Of a stretch of DNA of 64,000 nt, positions 23,522 through 49,145 are shown one piece after another (positions within the stretch are counted from its first letter, which is position 1; each line of letters opens with the position of its first letter). The notes below the pieces were generated by a model, which saw only the letters and a program-made list of their open reading frames with translations, was not told the DNA's origin and searched no databases. Position numbers and translations under genes: made by a program. The DNA is from Streptomyces sp. Tu6071. Its GTDB lineage: Bacteria; Actinomycetota; Actinomycetes; Streptomycetales; Streptomycetaceae. The stretch covers positions 1 to 64,000 of the forward strand of contig NZ_CM001165.1 in the NCBI RefSeq assembly GCF_000213055.1, given 5' to 3'.

Positions 23522-24451
23522 CTACCGCGGTGGGAGCGTGGTTTCCGGTCCACGCAGGGTGCGCACCGCGACGGCCTCGTGCGCGAGATACGTGCTCGGC
23601 GCCGCTCCCCGGCAGGTCAGGCGGTGTGGGGCGGTGCGGTGCGCGCGTACCTCGACCTCGCTGAGCGCCGGGTGCGGCGGTGTGCCCGCCACGCGTACGC
23701 GCCAGCCGTCGTCCGCGCGTTCCGTCCCGACGACCTCGTACGCGTGCCGGGCCGCGGGGCCGTGGCGGGCGAGGAGGGCGGCGACGGCGACCTGGGCGGG
23801 AGGGGGCAGGTCCGTGTAGCCGCGCAGGTGGGTGGCGGCCACGCGGTCCGCGAGGTGTTCCGCGAGCGTCGTCCCGGCCGAAGCCGCGTCGAGGTTCCCG
23901 TAGTACACGCCGTCGGGGAGGACGGCGACGTTGGCGGCGAAGCGGTCCCCGCCCACGTGGGTGCACTCCCACACGAGCCGCGGGTGGCGCGCGGCGAGGG
24001 CGGCGGCCACGGGGCGCCCCCGCACTGCGCAGCACACGTCGTGCAGCCCGTGCGCGCAGACGAGCACGACGGGTGGGTGCCCTGTCGTTCCCGGGCTGTG
24101 CAGGGCGTTCACGACGCCGTCGAGGTCCGCGTCCGCCTCCCACGTGCCCCAGGTCTGGCGGTGGGCTCCTCGGTCGTCGTGGTGGAGCACCGCCCAGCGG
24201 CGCGGCTCCGTGGCGCGGCGGCGGCCGGGGCGTCGCACGAGCAGGATGCGGGCCCGGCGCGTTTGTGCCGCCGCGAACACCCGTGCGGCAAGGGCGGGTT
24301 CGAGGCCGAGGCCCTCGAAGCCGTTCGGCGGCCAGCCTCCCGGGTGCTCGATCAGCACCCATACGCGCCCGTGCGGGGCTGTTCCCGCGAGCCCGTCGCC
24401 TCGCTCCCGCGCGGCCTCGGCGCAGAAGAACCGCGCCGGGTCCCCCGCCAT
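23522..24451 (-). CDS. Sucrase/ferredoxin-like family protein
   Basis: A 309-aa protein of the sucrase/ferredoxin-like family, which has a thioredoxin-fold [2Fe-2S] ferredoxin-like C-terminal half. Probable cluster ligands are C132 (VCAHGLHD), C140-C141 (DVCCAVRG) and C163 (WECTHVGGDRFAAN). The N-terminus begins MAGDPARFFC, with another cysteine in the CAEAARERG segment. The start overlaps the stop of the JmjC gene by one base (TGATG), so translation is coupled. An electron-transfer role for the iron oxygenase upstream is plausible but unproven. Confidence 0.8.
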   Translation of the reverse strand: MAGDPARFFCAEAARERGDGLAGTAPHGRVWVLIEHPGGWPPNGFEGLGLEPALAARVFAAAQTRRARILLVRRPGRRRATEPRRWAVLHHDDRGAHRQTWGTWEADADLDGVVNALHSPGTTGHPPVVLVCAHGLHDVCCAVRGRPVAAALAARHPRLVWECTHVGGDRFAANVAVLPDGVYYGNLDAASAGTTLAEHLADRVAATHLRGYTDLPPPAQVAVAALLARHGPAARHAYEVVGTERADDGWRVRVAGTPPHPALSEVEVRAHRTAPHRLTCRGAAPSTYLAHEAVAVRTLRGPETTLPPR

Positions 24452-25638
24452 CAGGGGGCGGCGGGGACGAGGACGCCCGCGCGCAGCAGACGGCGTACGA
24501 GAGCCGGTCCGAGGTCCCGCGTGGCGTGCGCCTCCCCGTCGAGCAGCCGGTGAACGGCCGGCAGGTCTGGGGGCGTGAGGTCGAGCCAGCCGGCGCGGGT
24601 CCACAGCCGTTCGCCGCTCAGGCGCGGCTCCAGCGCCTCGCGCAGCCGGACGTGGGTGTCGTCGGTGAGCGCGTCGAGTGCCGCGAGCTGGGCGAGCGGC
24701 CCGAGCGGGGCGGGGCGGCCCTGGCCGCGGCGGGTGCGCGCGAACAGCGGGGCCGGGTCGGCCGTGGTGAGTGCGGTGACGAGGCGCGCGCGGACCTCGT
24801 CCAGTTCCCCTTCGGGTCCGTCCACGCCGAGCGGGAGGGACGTGCGCATGGCGGGGTCCTCGCGCAGCGCGGCGAGGGCGGTCTCGGCGAGCTGGACGGC
24901 CAGGGCGTGCCGTGTCCAGGGGTGGACGCCGAGCGTCAGGTGCACGGAGACGGCGCCCTGGGCCACGGCGGAGTGCAGCCAGCCGCGCGGCAGGTAGAGC
25001 ACGTCGCCCGGTTCCAGGACGGTGTCCAGGACGGGCGCCCCGGAGGCGGCCTCGGCGACGGCGGCCCGGTGCCCGGTCCACGGCTGCTCGCGGGTGGGCG
25101 CGGTGACGACGGGTTCGTGGATGAGCCAGCGCTTGGTGCCGGTGATCTGGAGGACGAAGACGTCGTGCACGTCGTAGTGGGCGTCGAAGCCCTGGTTCTG
25201 GGGCGGGGTGACGTACGCGTTGGCCTGCACCGGGTGGCCCAGCTCCGTGGCGAGCCGCGAGGTGAAGGTGCCGACCGGCTCCCAGGTGCGGTGCAGCGCT
25301 TGGAGCACGAGCGTGGCGCCGTCCGCGAAGGCGCGCCACAGCGCGGTGTCGTCGAGCTGGTCGGCGATGGTGGCGCCGACGCCGCCCGGGGCGGTGAAGG
25401 ACGGCTCGGGGAGCGTGGCCCCGTCCTTGGCGACACGCAGGAACGGGGTGCGCAGCCCGCGCTGGGAGACCAGCTCGTCCACGGCGGCGGACGAGAAGAT
25501 GTCCGAGAAGTCGCCGGCCCCGCGGGTGAGCGAGGGCAGCCGTCCCCACACCTCGCGCGCGAACTCCTCACGGCCGAGGCCGGTCAGACACGACTCCAGG
25601 ACGCCGGCGTCCGCACGGACACCGGCGTCCCGGACCAC
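24451..25638 (-). CDS. JmjC/cupin-type Fe(II) 2-oxoglutarate oxygenase
   Basis: A 395-aa protein of the cupin-4/JmjC (RoxA-MINA53-NO66-like) oxygenase family. Iron ligands H154 and D156 lie in FDAHYDVHDVF, and the distal H222 in LPRGWLHSA; the C-terminal part is winged-helix-like as in ribosomal oxygenases. Characterised relatives hydroxylate Arg or His in ribosomal proteins. The GTG at 25638 has GAGGGG 6 nt upstream; a TTG at 25659 overlapping the previous stop is the alternative. It begins 17 nt after the four-repeat protein gene, whose repeats each hold one His, so that protein is a candidate substrate. Confidence 0.85.
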   Translation of the reverse strand: MVRDAGVRADAGVLESCLTGLGREEFAREVWGRLPSLTRGAGDFSDIFSSAAVDELVSQRGLRTPFLRVAKDGATLPEPSFTAPGGVGATIADQLDDTALWRAFADGATLVLQALHRTWEPVGTFTSRLATELGHPVQANAYVTPPQNQGFDAHYDVHDVFVLQITGTKRWLIHEPVVTAPTREQPWTGHRAAVAEAASGAPVLDTVLEPGDVLYLPRGWLHSAVAQGAVSVHLTLGVHPWTRHALAVQLAETALAALREDPAMRTSLPLGVDGPEGELDEVRARLVTALTTADPAPLFARTRRGQGRPAPLGPLAQLAALDALTDDTHVRLREALEPRLSGERLWTRAGWLDLTPPDLPAVHRLLDGEAHATRDLGPALVRRLLRAGVLVPAAP

Positions 25639-25655
25639 ACCGTTCCCCTCAGGGC

Positions 25656-25967
25656 TCAAGAGCCCTCGGCCGCGCCGTCGGCGCCGCCGTCGTGGACGCC
25701 GGGCTTACCCGCCGCGCCACCGTCAGCGGGACCTTCGGCCCCGCCGTCCGCACCGCCGTCGTGGACGCCGGGCTTACCGGCGGCGCCACCGTCGGCCGGA
25801 CCTTCGGCCGCGCCGTCGGCGCCGCCGTCGTGCACACCGGGGGTACCGGCCGCGCCACCGTCCGCGGGGCCCTCCGCCGCACCGTCCGCGCCGCCGTCGT
25901 GTACACCGGGCGTGCCCGCCGCGCCGCCGTCGGCCGGGCCTTCCTGCTGGTCCTCGGGCTTGCTCAT
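25656..25967 (-). CDS. Four-repeat Gly/Ala/Asp-rich small protein, candidate peptide substrate
   Basis: A 103-aa protein: an 8-residue N-terminus (MSKPEDQQ), four tandem 23-residue units and a C-terminal EGS. Each unit follows EGPADGGAAG-(T/K)-PGVHDGGADG-(A/G)-A, with one His and one Val. There is no signal peptide, Cys, Ser or Thr-rich core. The start at 25967 has a perfect AGGAGG site. It is the first gene of the operon with the JmjC oxygenase and the sucrase/ferredoxin-like protein. Multi-unit small proteins beside a tailoring oxygenase resemble multicore RiPP precursors, but the leader is very short and no protease or exporter gene is present. No family is recognised. Confidence 0.75.
   Translation of the reverse strand: MSKPEDQQEGPADGGAAGTPGVHDGGADGAAEGPADGGAAGTPGVHDGGADGAAEGPADGGAAGKPGVHDGGADGGAEGPADGGAAGKPGVHDGGADGAAEGS
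25668..25943 (-). repeat. Four 69-bp coding repeats
   Basis: Units lie at 25875-25943, 25806-25874, 25737-25805 and 25668-25736 (N- to C-terminal order). Units 1 and 2 encode identical peptides yet differ at 11 of 23 codons, all synonymous. Units 3 and 4 carry Lys in place of Thr. The array is therefore old at DNA level and conserved at protein level. Confidence 0.9.
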
Positions 25968-26210
25968 GCTGCCTCCTGGAAGTCGCGCGGACCGCGCGGA
26001 CGCGGACGTTCTCCGGTCAGGTGAATCCCTCCCGGCTCCCAACCTCGCCCACGGGCCGCCGACCGGCAACCGGAGGCCCGGGGGCGTGCGCGGCGCCTCC
26101 AGGGGTACGGGGGGTGCCTGGGTGGTGGTCGTCCCGGCCGGGCACGTGTGCGCCGGAACGGCGGAGCGGCTCCGCCGTCGCTTCTCGGCCGGAATCAGGT
26201 GGGTACGTAC

Positions 26211-27575
26211 ATGGATCTGTCGGGCACGGACCTGACGTACGGGCTGCTCGGTCTCGGGGCGCTCGGGGCGGCGACGCTGCCGACGCTGCTGAGACGGTGG
26301 GCCGTCTCGGTGCCCATGGTCTTCCTCGGCCTGGGCTTCGTCGTGTTCCTGTTGCCGCTCGATCCTTTGCCCTCGCTGGACCCCGTCGGCTCGGCCCCCG
26401 TGGTCGAGCACTTCACGGAGGTGTGCGTGCTCGTGGCCCTCATGGGCGCGGGACTGGCCATCAACAGGCCGTTCGGCAGGCGCACGTGGGCCAGTACCTG
26501 GCGGCTGCTGGGCGTGGCCATGCCGGTGACCGTCCTGGCCGCCGCCGCGGCCGGGTGGGGCTTGCTGGGCTGGGCCCCCGCCGTGGCGCTCCTGCTGGCG
26601 GGGATTCTCGCCCCCACCGATCCGGTGCTCGCCGGGGAGGTGCGGGTGGGGGAGCCGACCGACGCCGAGTTCGACGAGGACGAGACGCGCTTCGCGCTCA
26701 CCAGCGAGGCCGGGCTCAACGACGGGCTGGCCTTTCCCTTCGTCATGGCCGCCCTGGCCCTGTCCGCCGCCTCGGCGACCGGCTGGTCCGGGGCCTGGGT
26801 GGGGCACTGGCTCGGCTACGACGTGCTGCTGCGGATCGTGGTCGGCGTACTCGCCGGAACGGGGATGGGCGCCCTGCTCGGCAGGGTCGTCTTCCGGGCC
26901 CGCCCCACCGCGTTGCGCGTCTCGGAGCGCAGCGAGGGCTTCGTCGCGCTCGCCGTGGCGTTCGGTGCCTACGGCCTGACCGAAGTGCTGCACGGCTACG
27001 GCTTCCTCGCGGTCTTCGCGACCGCTGTGAGCCTGCGGTCGGCGGAGCGCGCGCACGGCTACCACCGGGTGATGCACTCGTTCATGGACCAGATCGAGCG
27101 ACTGCTGACCGCCGCCGTCCTCTTCCTCGTCGGCGGGTTCCTCGCCCAGGGCGGTTTCGCCGCCCTCACCTGGCGGGGGGCGGTCTTCGGCCTGCTCCTG
27201 GTGCTCGTGATCCGTCCCGTCACCGGATACCTCTCGCTGCGCTCCGCTCCGGCCGCCCCGCGCGAACGGGCCGTCACCGCGTTCTTCGGGATTCGCGGCA
27301 TCGGTTCGTTCTTCTATCTCTCCTACGCCCTCGGTCACGGCCATGTGGCCGCCCCGGCGGCCGAGTTGTGGGCCACCGTGACCTTCACGGTGGTGGTGTC
27401 GGTGCTGCTCCACGGCATCCTCGCGACGCCGGTCGTGCGCTACCTCGATCGGCGCGAGGCGCGTGCCGCGGCGGAGGCGTCGGAGGCCGGGGCGGAGGCG
27501 TCGGAGGCCGGGGCGGATGCCGCGGAGGCCGGGGCGTCCGCACCGGAGAAGGAGTCGCGTTCCGCCGGGCGCTGA
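26211..27575 (+). CDS. CPA1-type cation:proton antiporter
   Basis: A 454-aa integral membrane protein with about 11-12 spans. The segment AGILAPTDPVLAGEV and the downstream LTSEAGLNDGLAFPFV match the ion-binding region of Na+/H+ exchangers. FFGIRGIGSFFYL near the C-terminus is also typical. It probably exchanges Na+ or K+ for protons at the cell membrane. The start at 26211 has AGGTGGG 7 nt upstream. The cytoplasmic tail ends in an Ala/Glu-rich repeat (AEASEAG, two perfect 21-bp copies). The gene is divergent from the repeat-protein operon and stands alone. Confidence 0.9.
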   Translation: MDLSGTDLTYGLLGLGALGAATLPTLLRRWAVSVPMVFLGLGFVVFLLPLDPLPSLDPVGSAPVVEHFTEVCVLVALMGAGLAINRPFGRRTWASTWRLLGVAMPVTVLAAAAAGWGLLGWAPAVALLLAGILAPTDPVLAGEVRVGEPTDAEFDEDETRFALTSEAGLNDGLAFPFVMAALALSAASATGWSGAWVGHWLGYDVLLRIVVGVLAGTGMGALLGRVVFRARPTALRVSERSEGFVALAVAFGAYGLTEVLHGYGFLAVFATAVSLRSAERAHGYHRVMHSFMDQIERLLTAAVLFLVGGFLAQGGFAALTWRGAVFGLLLVLVIRPVTGYLSLRSAPAAPRERAVTAFFGIRGIGSFFYLSYALGHGHVAAPAAELWATVTFTVVVSVLLHGILATPVVRYLDRREARAAAEASEAGAEASEAGADAAEAGASAPEKESRSAGR

Positions 27576-27618: not shown

Positions 27619-28827
27619 TCACGGTGGCTGGGTCGAGGCCGTCCAGTCCGCACGCGCCGCGACGGCCGTCCGCCATGGGCGCAGGGTTTTCGGCGGAAGG
27701 CCGAAGGACAACGCGCCGACGAGCGTCCGCCCCTTGCGGTAGGCGACGAGGAAGCGCCCGTCGGCCGGGTCCCCCGCGACCACCCGGGCCTCCTCGTGGT
27801 CGCGGAGGTGCCCGTATGCCTGGACCCGGATTCCGTACTGGTCCGTCCAGAAGTAGGGGACGGGGGCGAACGGGCGGGCGGGCTCGGGGTGGAGCAGGTG
27901 GCGGGCGGCGGCCATGGCCTGCTCGGCGGCGTTGGTGCGGTGTTCGAGGCGCATCGACGTCCCGAACAGCGGGTTGTGCCAGCGTGCCACGTCCCCGGCC
28001 GCGTAGACGCCCGGGGCGGCGGAGTTGTACGCGTCGCACACGACGCCGTCGTCGAGGCGCAGTCCGCTGCCGGTGAGCCAGTCGGTGGCGGGCTCGGAGC
28101 CGATGGCCACGAGGACGTCGTCGGCGGGCACGGTCGTCGCGTCCGAGAGCCGGACCCCGGTGAGACGTCCGGCCGCGGTCTCGACCCCGGTCACCGCCGT
28201 GCCCGTGCGCAGGTCCACGCCGTGCCCGCGGTGCAGCCGCGCGATGTGGGCGCCGACCTGGTGGCCGACGACGCGGGCGAGCGGGACCGGGGCCGGTTCC
28301 ACGAGGGTGACGCGGGCGCCGAGGGCGCGCGCCGAGGAGGCGACCTCCGAGCCGAGGAATCCCGCACCGACGATGACGAGCCGACTGTCGGCGGCGAGCC
28401 GTTCCCGCAGGGCGAGGGCGTCCTCCAGGTGGCGCAGCACGTGCGTGCCGGGCAGCCCGCACCAGGGCAGGCGCCGGGGCCGTACGCCCGTCGCGATCAG
28501 GACGGCGTCCCAGCCGATGTCCTCGCCGTCCATGAGGGTCACGGTGCGGGAGGCCGGTGACAGGGCGGTCGCGGCGGTGCCGAGGCGCAGGTCCAGGCCG
28601 AGGGCGGCCACTTCCTCGGGATGCCGCAGCCGCGTGCGCGCGGCCGTCCACTCCCCCGCGAGGACCTGCTTGGAGAGCGGCGGGCGGTCGTAGGGAAGGT
28701 GCGGTTCCTTGCCGAGCAGGGTGAGGGCGCCGTCGTATCCCTCCCGGCGCAGGGTCTCGGCGGCGGTGAGGCCCGCCGCCGAGGCGCCGACCACGACGAT
28801 GCGGCGCGGCGCACGGGTTGCGGTCAC
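27619..28827 (-). CDS. FAD-dependent ferredoxin reductase
   Basis: A 402-aa NAD(P)H:ferredoxin reductase of the rubredoxin/putidaredoxin reductase type. The N-terminal FAD site is VVVGASAAGLTAAETL (residues 11-26), the NAD(P) site is LVIVGAGFLGSEVA, and a second FAD contact is GVYAAGDVA. A C-terminal reductase domain follows. The GTG start overlaps the ferredoxin stop (GTGA). It would pass electrons from NAD(P)H to the ferredoxin and on to the P450 encoded upstream, making a complete class I P450 system in one operon. Confidence 0.93.
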   Translation of the reverse strand: MTATRAPRRIVVVGASAAGLTAAETLRREGYDGALTLLGKEPHLPYDRPPLSKQVLAGEWTAARTRLRHPEEVAALGLDLRLGTAATALSPASRTVTLMDGEDIGWDAVLIATGVRPRRLPWCGLPGTHVLRHLEDALALRERLAADSRLVIVGAGFLGSEVASSARALGARVTLVEPAPVPLARVVGHQVGAHIARLHRGHGVDLRTGTAVTGVETAAGRLTGVRLSDATTVPADDVLVAIGSEPATDWLTGSGLRLDDGVVCDAYNSAAPGVYAAGDVARWHNPLFGTSMRLEHRTNAAEQAMAAARHLLHPEPARPFAPVPYFWTDQYGIRVQAYGHLRDHEEARVVAGDPADGRFLVAYRKGRTLVGALSFGLPPKTLRPWRTAVAARADWTASTQPP

Positions 28828-29018
28828 CTCGGCGCCAGGCGGATGGCGGCGGCGGGACAGACGGCGGCCGACTCGCGTACGTCGTCGTGGTGCTCGGGGG
28901 ACGGATCGGCGTCGAGCAGTTCGACGATGCCGTCGTCGTCCTGGTCGAAGACGTCGGGTGCCAGCAGGACGCACTGCCCGGACGCGACGCACTTGGGCTG
29001 ATCGACTTCCACGTGCAT
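28824..29018 (-). CDS. Small [3Fe-4S]-type ferredoxin
   Basis: A 64-aa ferredoxin of the kind that serves actinobacterial P450s. Cysteines C10, C16 and C54 (KCVASGQC ... AVCPAAA) give the three-ligand C-x5-C-x37-C-P pattern of a [3Fe-4S] cluster; the fourth ligand of a 4Fe ferredoxin is absent. Its charged, acidic surface is usual. It starts 32 nt after the P450 stop and overlaps the reductase start by 4 nt. It is the electron shuttle of the operon. Confidence 0.93.
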   Translation of the reverse strand: MHVEVDQPKCVASGQCVLLAPDVFDQDDDGIVELLDADPSPEHHDDVRESAAVCPAAAIRLAPR

Positions 29019-29050
29019 GGCGGACTCGCTTTCGTGGGCGCGGGAGGGGT

Positions 29051-30280
29051 TCACCAGGTGACGGGCAGTTCGTAGACGCCGAAGATGGCGCCGTCGTGCT
29101 TGAACTCCAGCCGCTCGATGTCCGTGGCTAGGGCGAGGGTGGGCACGCGGCGGTACAGCGTGCTGTAGACGACCTGGAGTTCCATCCGGGCGAGCGGCTG
29201 GCCGAGGCACTGGTGGACGCCGAAGCCGAAGGCGACGTGGCGTCGGGCGTCGCGGCCGAGGTCGAGCCGGTCCGGGTCGGGGAAGACCTCCGGGTCGCGG
29301 TTGGCGGTCTCACCGGCCAGGACGATGCCGTCGCCCGCCTTGATCGTCACGCCCGCGTACGTGATGTCCTCCAGCGCGACGCGGCGGCGCCCGCTGTGCA
29401 CGATGCTCAGGTAGCGCAGGAGTTCCTCGACGGCGGCGGCGACCGTCTTGGGGTCGTCGGCCGCGCGGAGCACGTCGAGCTGGTCCGGGTTCCGCAGGAG
29501 CGCGAGGGTGCCCAGAGCGATCATGTTCGCGGTGGTCTCGTGGCCGGCGGCGAGCAGCAGCACGCCCATCCGGGCCGCTTGCTGCCGGGTGAGCTGTCCC
29601 GTGGCCACCTGCCGCGTGGCGATGTCGGACAGCAGGTCCTCCTCCGGGTGCGCCTGCTTCTCGGCGAGCAAAGCGTCGAGGTAGTCCGTGAGGGCGGCGG
29701 AGGCGGCGGATACGTCCTCCGGCGCGGAGGAACGGCGGACGAGCACCTTGGTGTGGCGCTGGAAGAGGCCGTGGTCCGCGTAGGGGACGCCGAGCAGGGC
29801 GCAGATGACCAGGCTCGGCACGGGCAGTGCGAACGCCTGCACCAGGTCGACCGGCTTCGGCCCCGCGAGCAGGTCGTCGATCAGGTCGTCCGCGATCCGC
29901 TGCACTTCGGGCCGCAGCGCCTGCATCTTGCGGATGGCGAACGGGGCGGTGACCATCCGGCGCATGCGGGAGTGCTCCGGGTCGTCCATGTTGATGAACG
30001 AACGCCGGACCTCGCTGCCCGCCTTGGAGCCGGGGCTGATGTGGGGGAAGCCGGAGCGCGTGACGTCGGAGCTGACGCGCGGGTCCGCGAGGAGGGCGCG
30101 CACCTGGTCGTGCCGGGTGACGAGCCAGGGGGTGCTGCCGTCCCAGATGCGCACCCGGGACAAGGTGGCCTCCGTCTGCCTGGCCCGCAGGGCCTCGGGC
30201 GGGTCGAAGGGACACCGGGCGGCCCGGGGCATGGGGAACTCGGTGAGATCATCCGGTGCGTGCGACACGGTCTCGGTCAT
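29051..30280 (-). CDS. Cytochrome P450 (CYP105-like)
   Basis: A 409-aa soluble P450. The oxygen-binding I-helix motif AGHETT (245-250), ExxR in EELLR (285-289) and the heme loop FGFGVHQCLGQPLA with C358 are all intact. The overall look is CYP105-like, a family that hydroxylates xenobiotics, macrolides and vitamin D. GGAGGCAGGT precedes the ATG at 30280. Its own ferredoxin and reductase follow directly. The physiological substrate is unknown; no biosynthetic genes adjoin it. Confidence 0.94.
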   Translation of the reverse strand: MTETVSHAPDDLTEFPMPRAARCPFDPPEALRARQTEATLSRVRIWDGSTPWLVTRHDQVRALLADPRVSSDVTRSGFPHISPGSKAGSEVRRSFINMDDPEHSRMRRMVTAPFAIRKMQALRPEVQRIADDLIDDLLAGPKPVDLVQAFALPVPSLVICALLGVPYADHGLFQRHTKVLVRRSSAPEDVSAASAALTDYLDALLAEKQAHPEEDLLSDIATRQVATGQLTRQQAARMGVLLLAAGHETTANMIALGTLALLRNPDQLDVLRAADDPKTVAAAVEELLRYLSIVHSGRRRVALEDITYAGVTIKAGDGIVLAGETANRDPEVFPDPDRLDLGRDARRHVAFGFGVHQCLGQPLARMELQVVYSTLYRRVPTLALATDIERLEFKHDGAIFGVYELPVTW

Positions 30281-30943
30281 ACCTGCCTCCGCGAAGTGAG
30301 GGGTGGTGCCGTGGGCGGGATGCCGTGGTGGGGGTCCCGTGTCCCGAATCCTCACAACAATAGATGCCTGGGGCAACCAGTTGGCCGGAAGGAGCCCTTC
30401 CGCAGGAGCGTGATCGAGTCAGCCCCCGCATTCTCGCGGCGTCTCGGCCCCCGCGGCACGGAGACCGCCGGTCGCAGCGGGCGTTGGCGGGGGGGGGAGC
30501 AGGGGACGGTGGCGCGCGGCCCGTCCGGGCCTTGAACTCGTTCGCGTCGCGCGCCGGCCGGGCGTGGGGCCGCCGGCGCCGCTCGGCGACCGGCAGGAAG
30601 GGGCCCCGCGCGTCGACAAGGGGCCCCTCGGAGCCACCACCGGACCTGCCCGCCGATCCCCGGAGCGGATACCGCCACATTGACCGGAAGCGAGCAATCC
30701 TCAACGCCGTTACCGAGTGCGAGGGCACCAAAACCGGTTGTAAGGGCCAAGAAAGCGCCATCCCCCGAATCAGCCCAGGCCCCGGCGGCGGGAGGGGGAA
30801 TCCGGCGGCCTCAACGGTGCCCCCTCGCGGGGGGGCTCACTCGCTCTGCCGGAGCGCATCAGCGATCGGCTGCCCGTCCCGAACGGAGGTGACGGCACGC
30901 ACGCGCCGCTGTGCGTCTCGGCGGGTGCGAGGGACCGCGCGGC
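30281..30943. other. Intergenic region without a convincing gene
   Basis: About 660 nt upstream of the P450 and downstream of the DUF3253 gene. It contains a nine-G run (30491-30499) and only Arg/Pro-rich or short frames. A minus-strand frame near 30750 reads FGALALGNGVEDCSLPVNVA but lacks a signal or family match. The P450 promoter should lie at the left end. Confidence 0.5.
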
Positions 30944-48014: not shown

Positions 48015-48100
48015 GGCCAGGACGAGGTCCGGGACCAGGGCGAGGTCCCGGATCAGGACGAGGCGCGGATCAGGACGAGGCGCGGATCAGGACGAGGCGC
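48015..48100. repeat. 17-bp tandem repeats overlapping the lacI 3' end
   Basis: Three perfect copies of GGATCAGGACGAGGCGC lie at 48050-48066, 48067-48083 and 48084-48100, with two degenerate copies between 48015 and 48049. The copy at 48084-48100 includes the last codons and the stop of the LacI gene, so the array appears to be an expansion of that gene's end. The rest of the region from 47756 shows no gene. Confidence 0.85.
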
Positions 48101-49145
48101 GGATCACGAGTTCCGGGTCGAAGACCACCGCGACGGGTTCCGCGGCGCCGCTCTCGATGTGGGTGTGCAGGAGGCGTGCCATCTCGGCGGCCATCTCCTC
48201 GACGGGCTGGCGGATCGTCGTGAGGGGCGGGTTGGCGGTGACGGCGGCGGTGCTGTCGTCGAAGCCGACGACGGAGACGTCGGCGGGGACGCGTCTGCCG
48301 CGTTCGCGCAGGACCTGGCAGGCGCCCTGGGCCATGAGGTCGTTGGCGGCGAAGACGCCGTCGAGGCCGGGGTGCTCGTCGAGGAGGCGGCGCATCGCCG
48401 TCTCGCCGCTGGCGAGGGTGAAGCCGCCCTCGGCGAACGGGACCCAGGCGTGGCCGTGGCGGGCCATCGCCTCGCGGAAGCCGGTGAAGCGCTCCTGCCC
48501 CGCGAGGACGTCGAGGGGCCCGGTGATGGTCGCGATGGTGCGGCGACCGCGCGCGAGGAGGTGGGCGGCGGCGAGCGCCGCGCCGTCGCGATGGGCCAGG
48601 TCGACGTAGCTGAGCGGGACCGGCAGCGCGGGGCGGGCGAAGAGGACGGCCGGGACGCCCGTGTCGGCGATGCGGGCGGGGAGCGGGTCGGCGGGGTGGG
48701 TGGTGACGACGAGGGCGCCGTCCGCGCTGCCCTGGCGCAGGTAGGCGATCGCCTCGGCGCGGGCCGCCTCGGTCTCCGCGAAGAGGAGGACGGGGTGGAG
48801 CGAGTGGGGCCGCAGATAGCCGATGATGCCGCTCACCGCGCGGCCGAAGAAGGGGTCGGCGAACACGCGGGCGGCGAATCCCGGGTCCGTGTCCTCGCCC
48901 TCGTCGCCCGCGCCGGAGACGACGAGGGCGACCGTTCCGGCCTTGCGCGTGACGAGGGAACGAGCGGCACGGTTCGGGGTGTAGCCGGTGGCGGTGATCG
49001 CCTCGCGGACCGCGCTCTGGATGCCGGGGTCGACATTGCGCACGCCGTTGACGACGCGCGAGACGGTGGCCCGGGACACCCCGGCGACGCGGGCGACGTC
49101 CTCCAGGGTCGCGGCCCGGCCGCGGGTCTGCGGCTCTCTGCTCAT
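48087..49145 (-). CDS. LacI-family transcriptional regulator
   Basis: A 352-aa LacI/GalR repressor. The helix-turn-helix is at about residues 12-32 (TLEDVARVAGVSRATVSRVV), with the hinge NRAARSLVTRK. The sugar-binding periplasmic-like domain follows, ending DPELVIRASS. The start at 49145 is standard. A GAGAGCGCTCTC palindrome lies 22 nt upstream and an identical one precedes the divergent DUF1996 gene. It thus probably represses itself and the secreted glycan-active genes to its right. Confidence 0.93.
   Translation of the reverse strand: MSREPQTRGRAATLEDVARVAGVSRATVSRVVNGVRNVDPGIQSAVREAITATGYTPNRAARSLVTRKAGTVALVVSGAGDEGEDTDPGFAARVFADPFFGRAVSGIIGYLRPHSLHPVLLFAETEAARAEAIAYLRQGSADGALVVTTHPADPLPARIADTGVPAVLFARPALPVPLSYVDLAHRDGAALAAAHLLARGRRTIATITGPLDVLAGQERFTGFREAMARHGHAWVPFAEGGFTLASGETAMRRLLDEHPGLDGVFAANDLMAQGACQVLRERGRRVPADVSVVGFDDSTAAVTANPPLTTIRQPVEEMAAEMARLLHTHIESGAAEPVAVVFDPELVIRASS

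Follow-up and report, generated by a model that had tools for sequence, protein, structure and literature searches.

An Asp-rich repeat protein encoded beside a JmjC oxygenase: a candidate protein-modification cassette of actinobacteria

The closest described systems to the one treated here center on NO66, MINA (MINA53) and YcfD, members of Pfam family PF08007 that hydroxylate the beta carbon of their targets. The subject is a gene trio in the first 64,000 nucleotides of contig NZ_CM001165.1 of Streptomyces sp. Tu6071 (assembly GCF_000213055.1), a stretch called the window in what follows. A gene for an Asp-rich repeat protein is followed there by genes for a JmjC oxygenase and a Suc_Fer-like protein. 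In its predicted structure the oxygenase shares with NO66, MINA53 and YcfD the catalytic domain, the Fe ligands, a helical middle domain and a C-terminal winged helix, but it has an Asp-rich repeat peptide of its own, encoded next door, and a ribosomal substrate is not indicated.

Ribosomally synthesized and post-translationally modified peptides (RiPPs) of the biphenomycin type offer a second comparison. As the available passages on them have it, a JmjC/cupin oxygenase (BipG, PbsQ) likewise acts on a ribosomal precursor encoded nearby; however, ornithine is the residue hydroxylated, and the larger clusters include an MNIO, a radical SAM enzyme, an arginase-type enzyme and a protease, whereas the present locus has three genes and a multi-site Asp-rich core. 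A structural survey of RiPP recognition elements (RREs) describes RRE-JmjC proteins (PF08007) with a fused RRE-like fold, the fish and algal examples having their closest bacterial homologues in RiPP-like contexts; in its passage on JmjC neither a precursor with Asp-rich repeats nor a Suc_Fer partner or such a cassette is named (PMC12710340). Beta-hydroxylation of Asp in RiPP precursors is attributed to alphaKG-HExxH (alpha-ketoglutarate-dependent) enzymes and MNIOs (PMC12636437, PMC13060819); the chemistry is alike, but the enzyme families differ, and the excerpts of these papers that were available contain no tandem-repeat Asp core. No account of the cassette was found in a literature search that covered few subscription papers, nor in Pfam, NCBIfam or PADLOC, and our analysis suggests that the trio is an old, apparently undescribed protein-modification system.

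When the oxygenase was sought in 394 genomes of the class, close matches (E <= 1.3e-59) were found in 63, spread over 20 families. The loci compared in detail number 89, namely the window, nine of eleven named loci (L034-L042, with L032 and L033 left out) and 79 fetched loci, L071-L149; they include one duplicated pair (L038/L144), and genomes G152 and G147 stand outside the set. A strict pattern of at least three DGGA-type motifs in an open reading frame (ORF) ending between -900 and +150 from the gene start was positive at 80 of the 89 cassette loci and at none of 1022 other genes of the same loci, the control genes lying at least 2.5 kb from the cassette. Reading all ORFs placed a canonical DGG-repeat ORF directly upstream of the oxygenase gene in 84 loci, and the remaining five have another Asp-rich ORF upstream, divergent in L126, L127 and L128 and non-repeated in L091 and L092. 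The Suc_Fer-like gene stands alongside in 78 of the 89 (the copy in L110 was recovered after the gene caller had missed it). Clustering of the predicted proteins across these loci recovered the oxygenase family in 87 and the Suc_Fer-like family in 77. Low-complexity sequence clusters poorly, and the repeat ORF came out in 28 loci and an antisense ORF over its position in 19. The next commonest family occurs in 17 loci, at scattered places and in both orientations; no family besides those of the trio keeps a constant position across the 89 loci.

Within Streptomyces the two genes also travel together. Among 199 genomes, 106 match the oxygenase at E <= 0.001 and 21 of them closely (E <= 9.1e-130), while the repeat protein has 21 clear matches (E <= 4.2e-14) and five weak ones (3.4e-6 to 8.2e-4). 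Twenty of the 21 genomes with a clear repeat gene carry the close oxygenase, and the 21st close-oxygenase genome, G147, has a one-unit, 41-residue version of the repeat protein upstream of it, so that a repeat gene is present in all 21 genomes with the close oxygenase. The 178 genomes that lack it hold one clear repeat match (G116) and four weak ones (3e-5 to 8e-4); in G116, an assembly of about 540 contigs with no oxygenase match, the repeat gene lies at a contig edge. The first-pass annotation of this DNA had named a search of actinobacterial genomes for a conserved three-gene order as a check, and the survey finds such an order; close oxygenases mostly without a repeat protein, the case it had set against itself, are not what either the class-wide or the Streptomyces loci contain. 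That oxygenase and repeat protein form a dedicated enzyme-substrate pair is strongly supported.

The repeat protein consists of four 23-residue units starting at residues 9, 32, 55 and 78, with one His per unit, within PGVHDGG; Tandem Repeats Finder places the repeat at 25666-25943, with a period of 69 and 4.0 copies. Codon differences among the units number 52 synonymous against 7 non-synonymous, and 54 of 61 base differences fall at third positions, so the amino-acid sequence of the repeat appears constrained. One antisense frame is likewise mostly synonymous (44:11), and the assignment of strand therefore rests on gene order, the AGGAGG site and conservation. Chance and an antisense artefact were rejected on the codon statistics of the units and the empty control of 1022 genes. 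The window protein is very hydrophilic and acidic (grand average of hydropathy, GRAVY, -0.67; charge about -16), and the 84 canonical proteins have neither Cys nor Trp and contain 35.6% Gly versus 16.0% Asp. The sequence AGGAGGAA, with at most one mismatch, occurs in 27 of 28 distinct Streptomyces regions upstream of the repeat gene; a search of Streptomyces for a shared upstream regulatory motif found no k-mer clearly outstanding besides the ribosome site, and elsewhere the leading k-mers were level with, or only a little above, those of shuffled sequence. Membership in a known precursor family was considered and rejected, the window repeat protein having no NCBIfam or Pfam match; ten other precursors gave no NCBIfam match, and of seven run against Pfam one gave a weak match, to IMUP, below its cutoff.

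The oxygenase matches PF08007 (JmjC_2) at E 3.7e-29, with 101.3 bits against a cutoff of 22, and Cupin_8 at E 4.2e-9, and its predicted ligands H154, D156 and H222 are invariant among 87 orthologues. The predicted structure unites the JmjC domain, the helical middle domain and the winged helix in one chain and matches NO66 over its whole length; identity in the structural alignments with ribosomal oxygenases is 18-28%. In the model the C-terminal domain has strands, then three helices, and its profile matches the C-terminus of the YcfD-like protein of R. marinus (4csw) at E 8.1e-5, a relation to PqqD-type RREs being an alternative considered. By prediction the enzyme has the fold of the protein hydroxylases NO66, MINA and YcfD. 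NCBIfam has no informative model for it. Among 8000 proteins scored, 5502 are relatives at E <= 1e-30, and the best 120 of these bear general names only, such as 'cupin domain-containing', hypothetical or NO66. A search for plasmid copies returned 44 records, every one below 60% identity.

The third protein belongs to PF06999, Suc_Fer-like (E 2e-16, 61 bits against a cutoff of 34.9), a family whose yeast member Apd1 binds a [2Fe-2S] cluster. Among 77 sequences C132, C140, C141 and H165 are conserved in all, C280 in 99% and C163 in 91%. The gene is not adjacent in 11 of the 89 loci; eight of these genomes carry a more distant Suc_Fer-like protein elsewhere, and three pair-bearing genomes (G309, G288, G384) have none at E <= 1e-8. 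The supply of electrons from the third protein that the first-pass annotation had entertained therefore cannot be obligatory. Across the 199 Streptomyces genomes, close relatives occur in 23, and 102 others have nothing nearer than a distant paralogue (E <= 1e-20). In one of the Streptomyces genomes (G190, contig 7, 68515-69707) a close Suc_Fer-like gene lies beside a 94-residue C-terminal remnant of the oxygenase, with no repeat match; this locus is likely a decayed cassette.

The pairing extends beyond the class. At E <= 1e-40 the oxygenase finds matches in 26 of 296 genomes of the phylum; 16 of these genomes belong to other classes and supplied 17 loci. Fifteen of these loci have the same layout, the upstream ORF bearing the leader L-(T/S)-(D/E)-(D/E)-D-I-x-T-V, for example LTDEDIETV; in the other two (L209, L213) the contig runs out on the upstream side. 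A Suc_Fer-like gene follows downstream in 14 of the 17. In 14 of these 15 precursors 28-39% of the core residues are Asp, and the overall figure is 29.6%. The remaining locus, L204, has a repeat of another type, ADGTDQGVxGGTYGPRDA, with the leader kept and no Suc_Fer-like match in the locus. A second subtype within families f26 and f30 (L170-L178 without L173) combines repeats of the DGTDGDSTD type with a JmjC gene and a Suc_Fer match in the locus; in L171 the repeat ORF lies upstream, and the leader, in all seven cases checked, is that found outside the class.

More distant JmjC_2 genes behave differently. Read by eye, 18 of 32 such loci, all lacking this cassette, have a different short D/N-rich peptide upstream; one (L189) is doubtful, and 13 show no recognisable peptide. 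The 18 are L150, L152, L153, L155-L157, L159, L161, L164, L166, L168, L169, L173, L180, L181 and L184-L186; their peptides end, for example, in SDGGGTGRSDGND or DNDPTDPVIVIADNDPSDPVI, or read MDPIEVEVEDLAEVTSRDITAGGDSDGTDGSSDFI. Several further families of JmjC enzyme and D/N-rich peptide probably exist among these loci.

An oxygenase tree of 94 rows, several of whose long branches are flagged, sets off each of the families f1, f4, f9, f36 and f37 by a strongly supported branch; support for the branch of f26 is weak, and none sets off f33, f28, f18 or f19. Mapped on the tree, the family labels require 24 changes (minimum 22; mean of shuffled labels 61.6). The tree fits mostly vertical descent with losses, unlike the history of a mobile antibiotic cluster.

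With moderate confidence, we favor the reading that the trio is a stand-alone RiPP-like cassette in which the JmjC oxygenase places beta-hydroxyl groups on Asp residues all along a precursor of several repeats. As in RiPP pathways, a short precursor gene is conserved beside a modifying enzyme; neither a maturation protease nor an exporter, which such clusters usually though not necessarily include, was found. The term 'RiPP-like' is chosen because the cassette would work in RiPP style while a cluster protease is absent and we infer the modification. The acidic repeat protein, translated from a strong ribosome site, would be the dedicated substrate of the oxygenase encoded just downstream. With Fe(II), O2 and 2-oxoglutarate the enzyme would add hydroxyl groups to Asp, with the beta carbon as the likeliest position, at the repeated (A/H)-Asp-Gly-(Gly/Ala/Ser) sites, proceeding iteratively along the chain. 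The N-terminal segment may dock the substrate, a part that would fall in most other families to the L-x-D-D-D-I-x-T leader, and the winged-helix domain is a plausible docking surface. The Suc_Fer-like protein would be an accessory, perhaps keeping the enzyme iron reduced or handling iron bound to the product. What results would be a poly(hydroxy)aspartyl protein of polyanionic character that works within the cell or, once general machinery has exported it, outside; plausibly it binds metal (Fe or Ca).

The case for Asp comes from the 84 canonical proteins, which together have 1007 Asp-Gly-(G/S/A/T) sites. Ala precedes the Asp at 721 of them, His at 203 and another residue at 83; every protein has at least two ADG(G/S/T/A) sites, and HDG is absent from 18, which have, for example, QDGG or SDGG instead. 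By these counts, Asp is the reactive residue common to all canonical members, and the adjacent Gly is the other residue shared.

Several observations weigh against Asp hydroxylation of a RiPP-like precursor. Conservation alone does not single out Asp, because Gly is commoner and stands beside it throughout. The core of L204 has only 13% Asp, and in L091 and L092 the ORF in the place of the precursor is Asp-rich yet non-repeated. The first-pass annotation had counted a very short leader as a weakness; this is answered in part, a leader motif being present in 43 of 60 non-Streptomyces loci and in all 15 outside-class precursors, but absent from all 29 Streptomyces precursors. Around the 89 loci no family of proteases, exporters or regulators recurs, which agrees with the earlier remark that neither a protease nor an exporter lies nearby; a released small peptide is therefore unlikely or dependent on general enzymes, and a secreted small antibiotic is argued against. 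Finally, the closest solved structures, NO66 and MINA, are histidyl hydroxylases, and HDG is second in frequency to ADG, so that His is a possible target in the window species.

The oxygenase might instead hydroxylate the His of each PGVHDGG unit as NO66 and MINA do, with Asp-Gly serving as scaffold. HDG is present in all 29 Streptomyces proteins and all 15 f4 proteins, as such a preference would have it; yet the 18 canonical proteins without HDG, the precursor of L102, which is essentially sixteen copies of ADGG, and a total of two His in the 15 outside-class cores rule out His as the universal target, and the all-ADGG core of L102 does the same for Pro. Of the residues that the first-pass annotation had named as targets (His, or else Asp or Pro), His and Pro thus fail as general ones, and we consider hydroxylation of His the unlikely course.

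It might also be supposed that the repeat protein is a stress protectant akin to the hydrophilins, a glycine-rich and very hydrophilic class, and that oxidation tunes the protein, metal binding having no role. The Gly content of the family, its lack of Cys and Trp, the hydropathy and charge of the window protein and the want of a conserved exporter would all suit such a function, but no conserved neighbor points to stress and the iron-sulphur-type third gene would go unexplained; this, too, seems improbable. Poorer still are the prospects of a repeat protein that serves as partner or scaffold while the oxygenase modifies a ribosomal protein or some other target, in the manner of YcfD and NO66: the enzyme does resemble the ribosomal oxygenases in fold and in the order of its domains, but it is patchy within Streptomyces (21 of 199 genomes), is strictly paired with the repeat ORF and has precursor types that differ by enzyme clade, all of which suits a dedicated substrate better. 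An anti-phage system was rejected, the three proteins having no PADLOC-DB match at E <= 0.01.

Features of the trio are collected in the table; all were present where first described, and the repeat units, the spacing, the stop/start overlap and the three ligand residues agree with the first-pass annotation. A gap of 17 nucleotides separates the repeat gene from the oxygenase gene, whose stop codon shares bases with the third gene's ATG in the TGATG at 24451, and from this spacing the trio is inferred to lie on one transcript.

Table. Positions in the window of the features of the trio.
Feature	Coordinates	Strand	Remark
Repeat protein gene, proposed Asp-rich multi-repeat precursor/substrate	25656..25967	-	103 aa + stop
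Tandem repeat of four units of 23 residues, EGPADGGAAGxPGVHDGGADG(A/G)A, each with three Asp-Gly sites	25668..25943	-	tandem-repeat finding
N-terminal segment MSKPEDQQ, in leader position, short	25944..25967	-	
AGGAGG ribosome-binding site of repeat gene	25972..25977	-	
ROX-type JmjC_2 Fe(II)/2-oxoglutarate oxygenase, 395 aa, GTG start at 25638	24451..25638	-	
Predicted Fe ligands H154 and D156 (HYD)	25171..25179	-	100% conserved, 87 orthologues
Predicted Fe ligand H222	24973..24975	-	100% conserved, 87 orthologues
C-terminal winged-helix-like domain, residues 329-392, possible precursor-binding site	24463..24654	-	structure model and profile match
Suc_Fer-like (PF06999) protein, 309 aa	23522..24451	-	profile match; adjacent in 78/89 loci

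Near the cassette, at 27619-30376 of the window, minus-strand genes stand in a row, their translations reading like what we take to be a ferredoxin reductase, a small ferredoxin and a cytochrome P450. A 21-bp tandem repeat at 27465-27548 codes for the Ala/Glu/Ser/Gly-rich C-terminal tail of a membrane protein, presumably an antiporter. Elsewhere in the window, a 17-bp tandem repeat at 48018-48106 (5.1 copies, 91% matches) has a period that is no multiple of three; it lies at the end of what we assume to be a LacI-like gene, near a gene that is presumably for a catalase-peroxidase. Rfam and tRNA scans of the window gave no match.

Asp hydroxylation of the repeat protein lends itself to a bolder form, which we regard as tentative and rather doubtful: the trio would be an ancient actinobacterial system, for the most part inherited vertically, that makes a poly-beta-hydroxyaspartyl protein. 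A single oxygenase would modify a dozen or more Asp residues of the tandem-repeat chain, which would then act as an intracellular buffer of high capacity for iron or calcium, with the Fe-S-type partner reducing and releasing the metal. If true, this would establish ribosomally encoded metal-binding polymers of a new class, whose Asp-rich cores vary from lineage to lineage within the phylum. More generally, the trio offers a simple pairing in which the substrate of an NO66-type oxygenase is encoded alongside, is easily expressed and has many near-identical sites. Should Asp prove to be the target, an enzyme of the ribosomal-oxygenase type would be seen to modify a low-complexity protein iteratively, and the repeat protein would be a first testable substrate for a large group of bacterial proteins.

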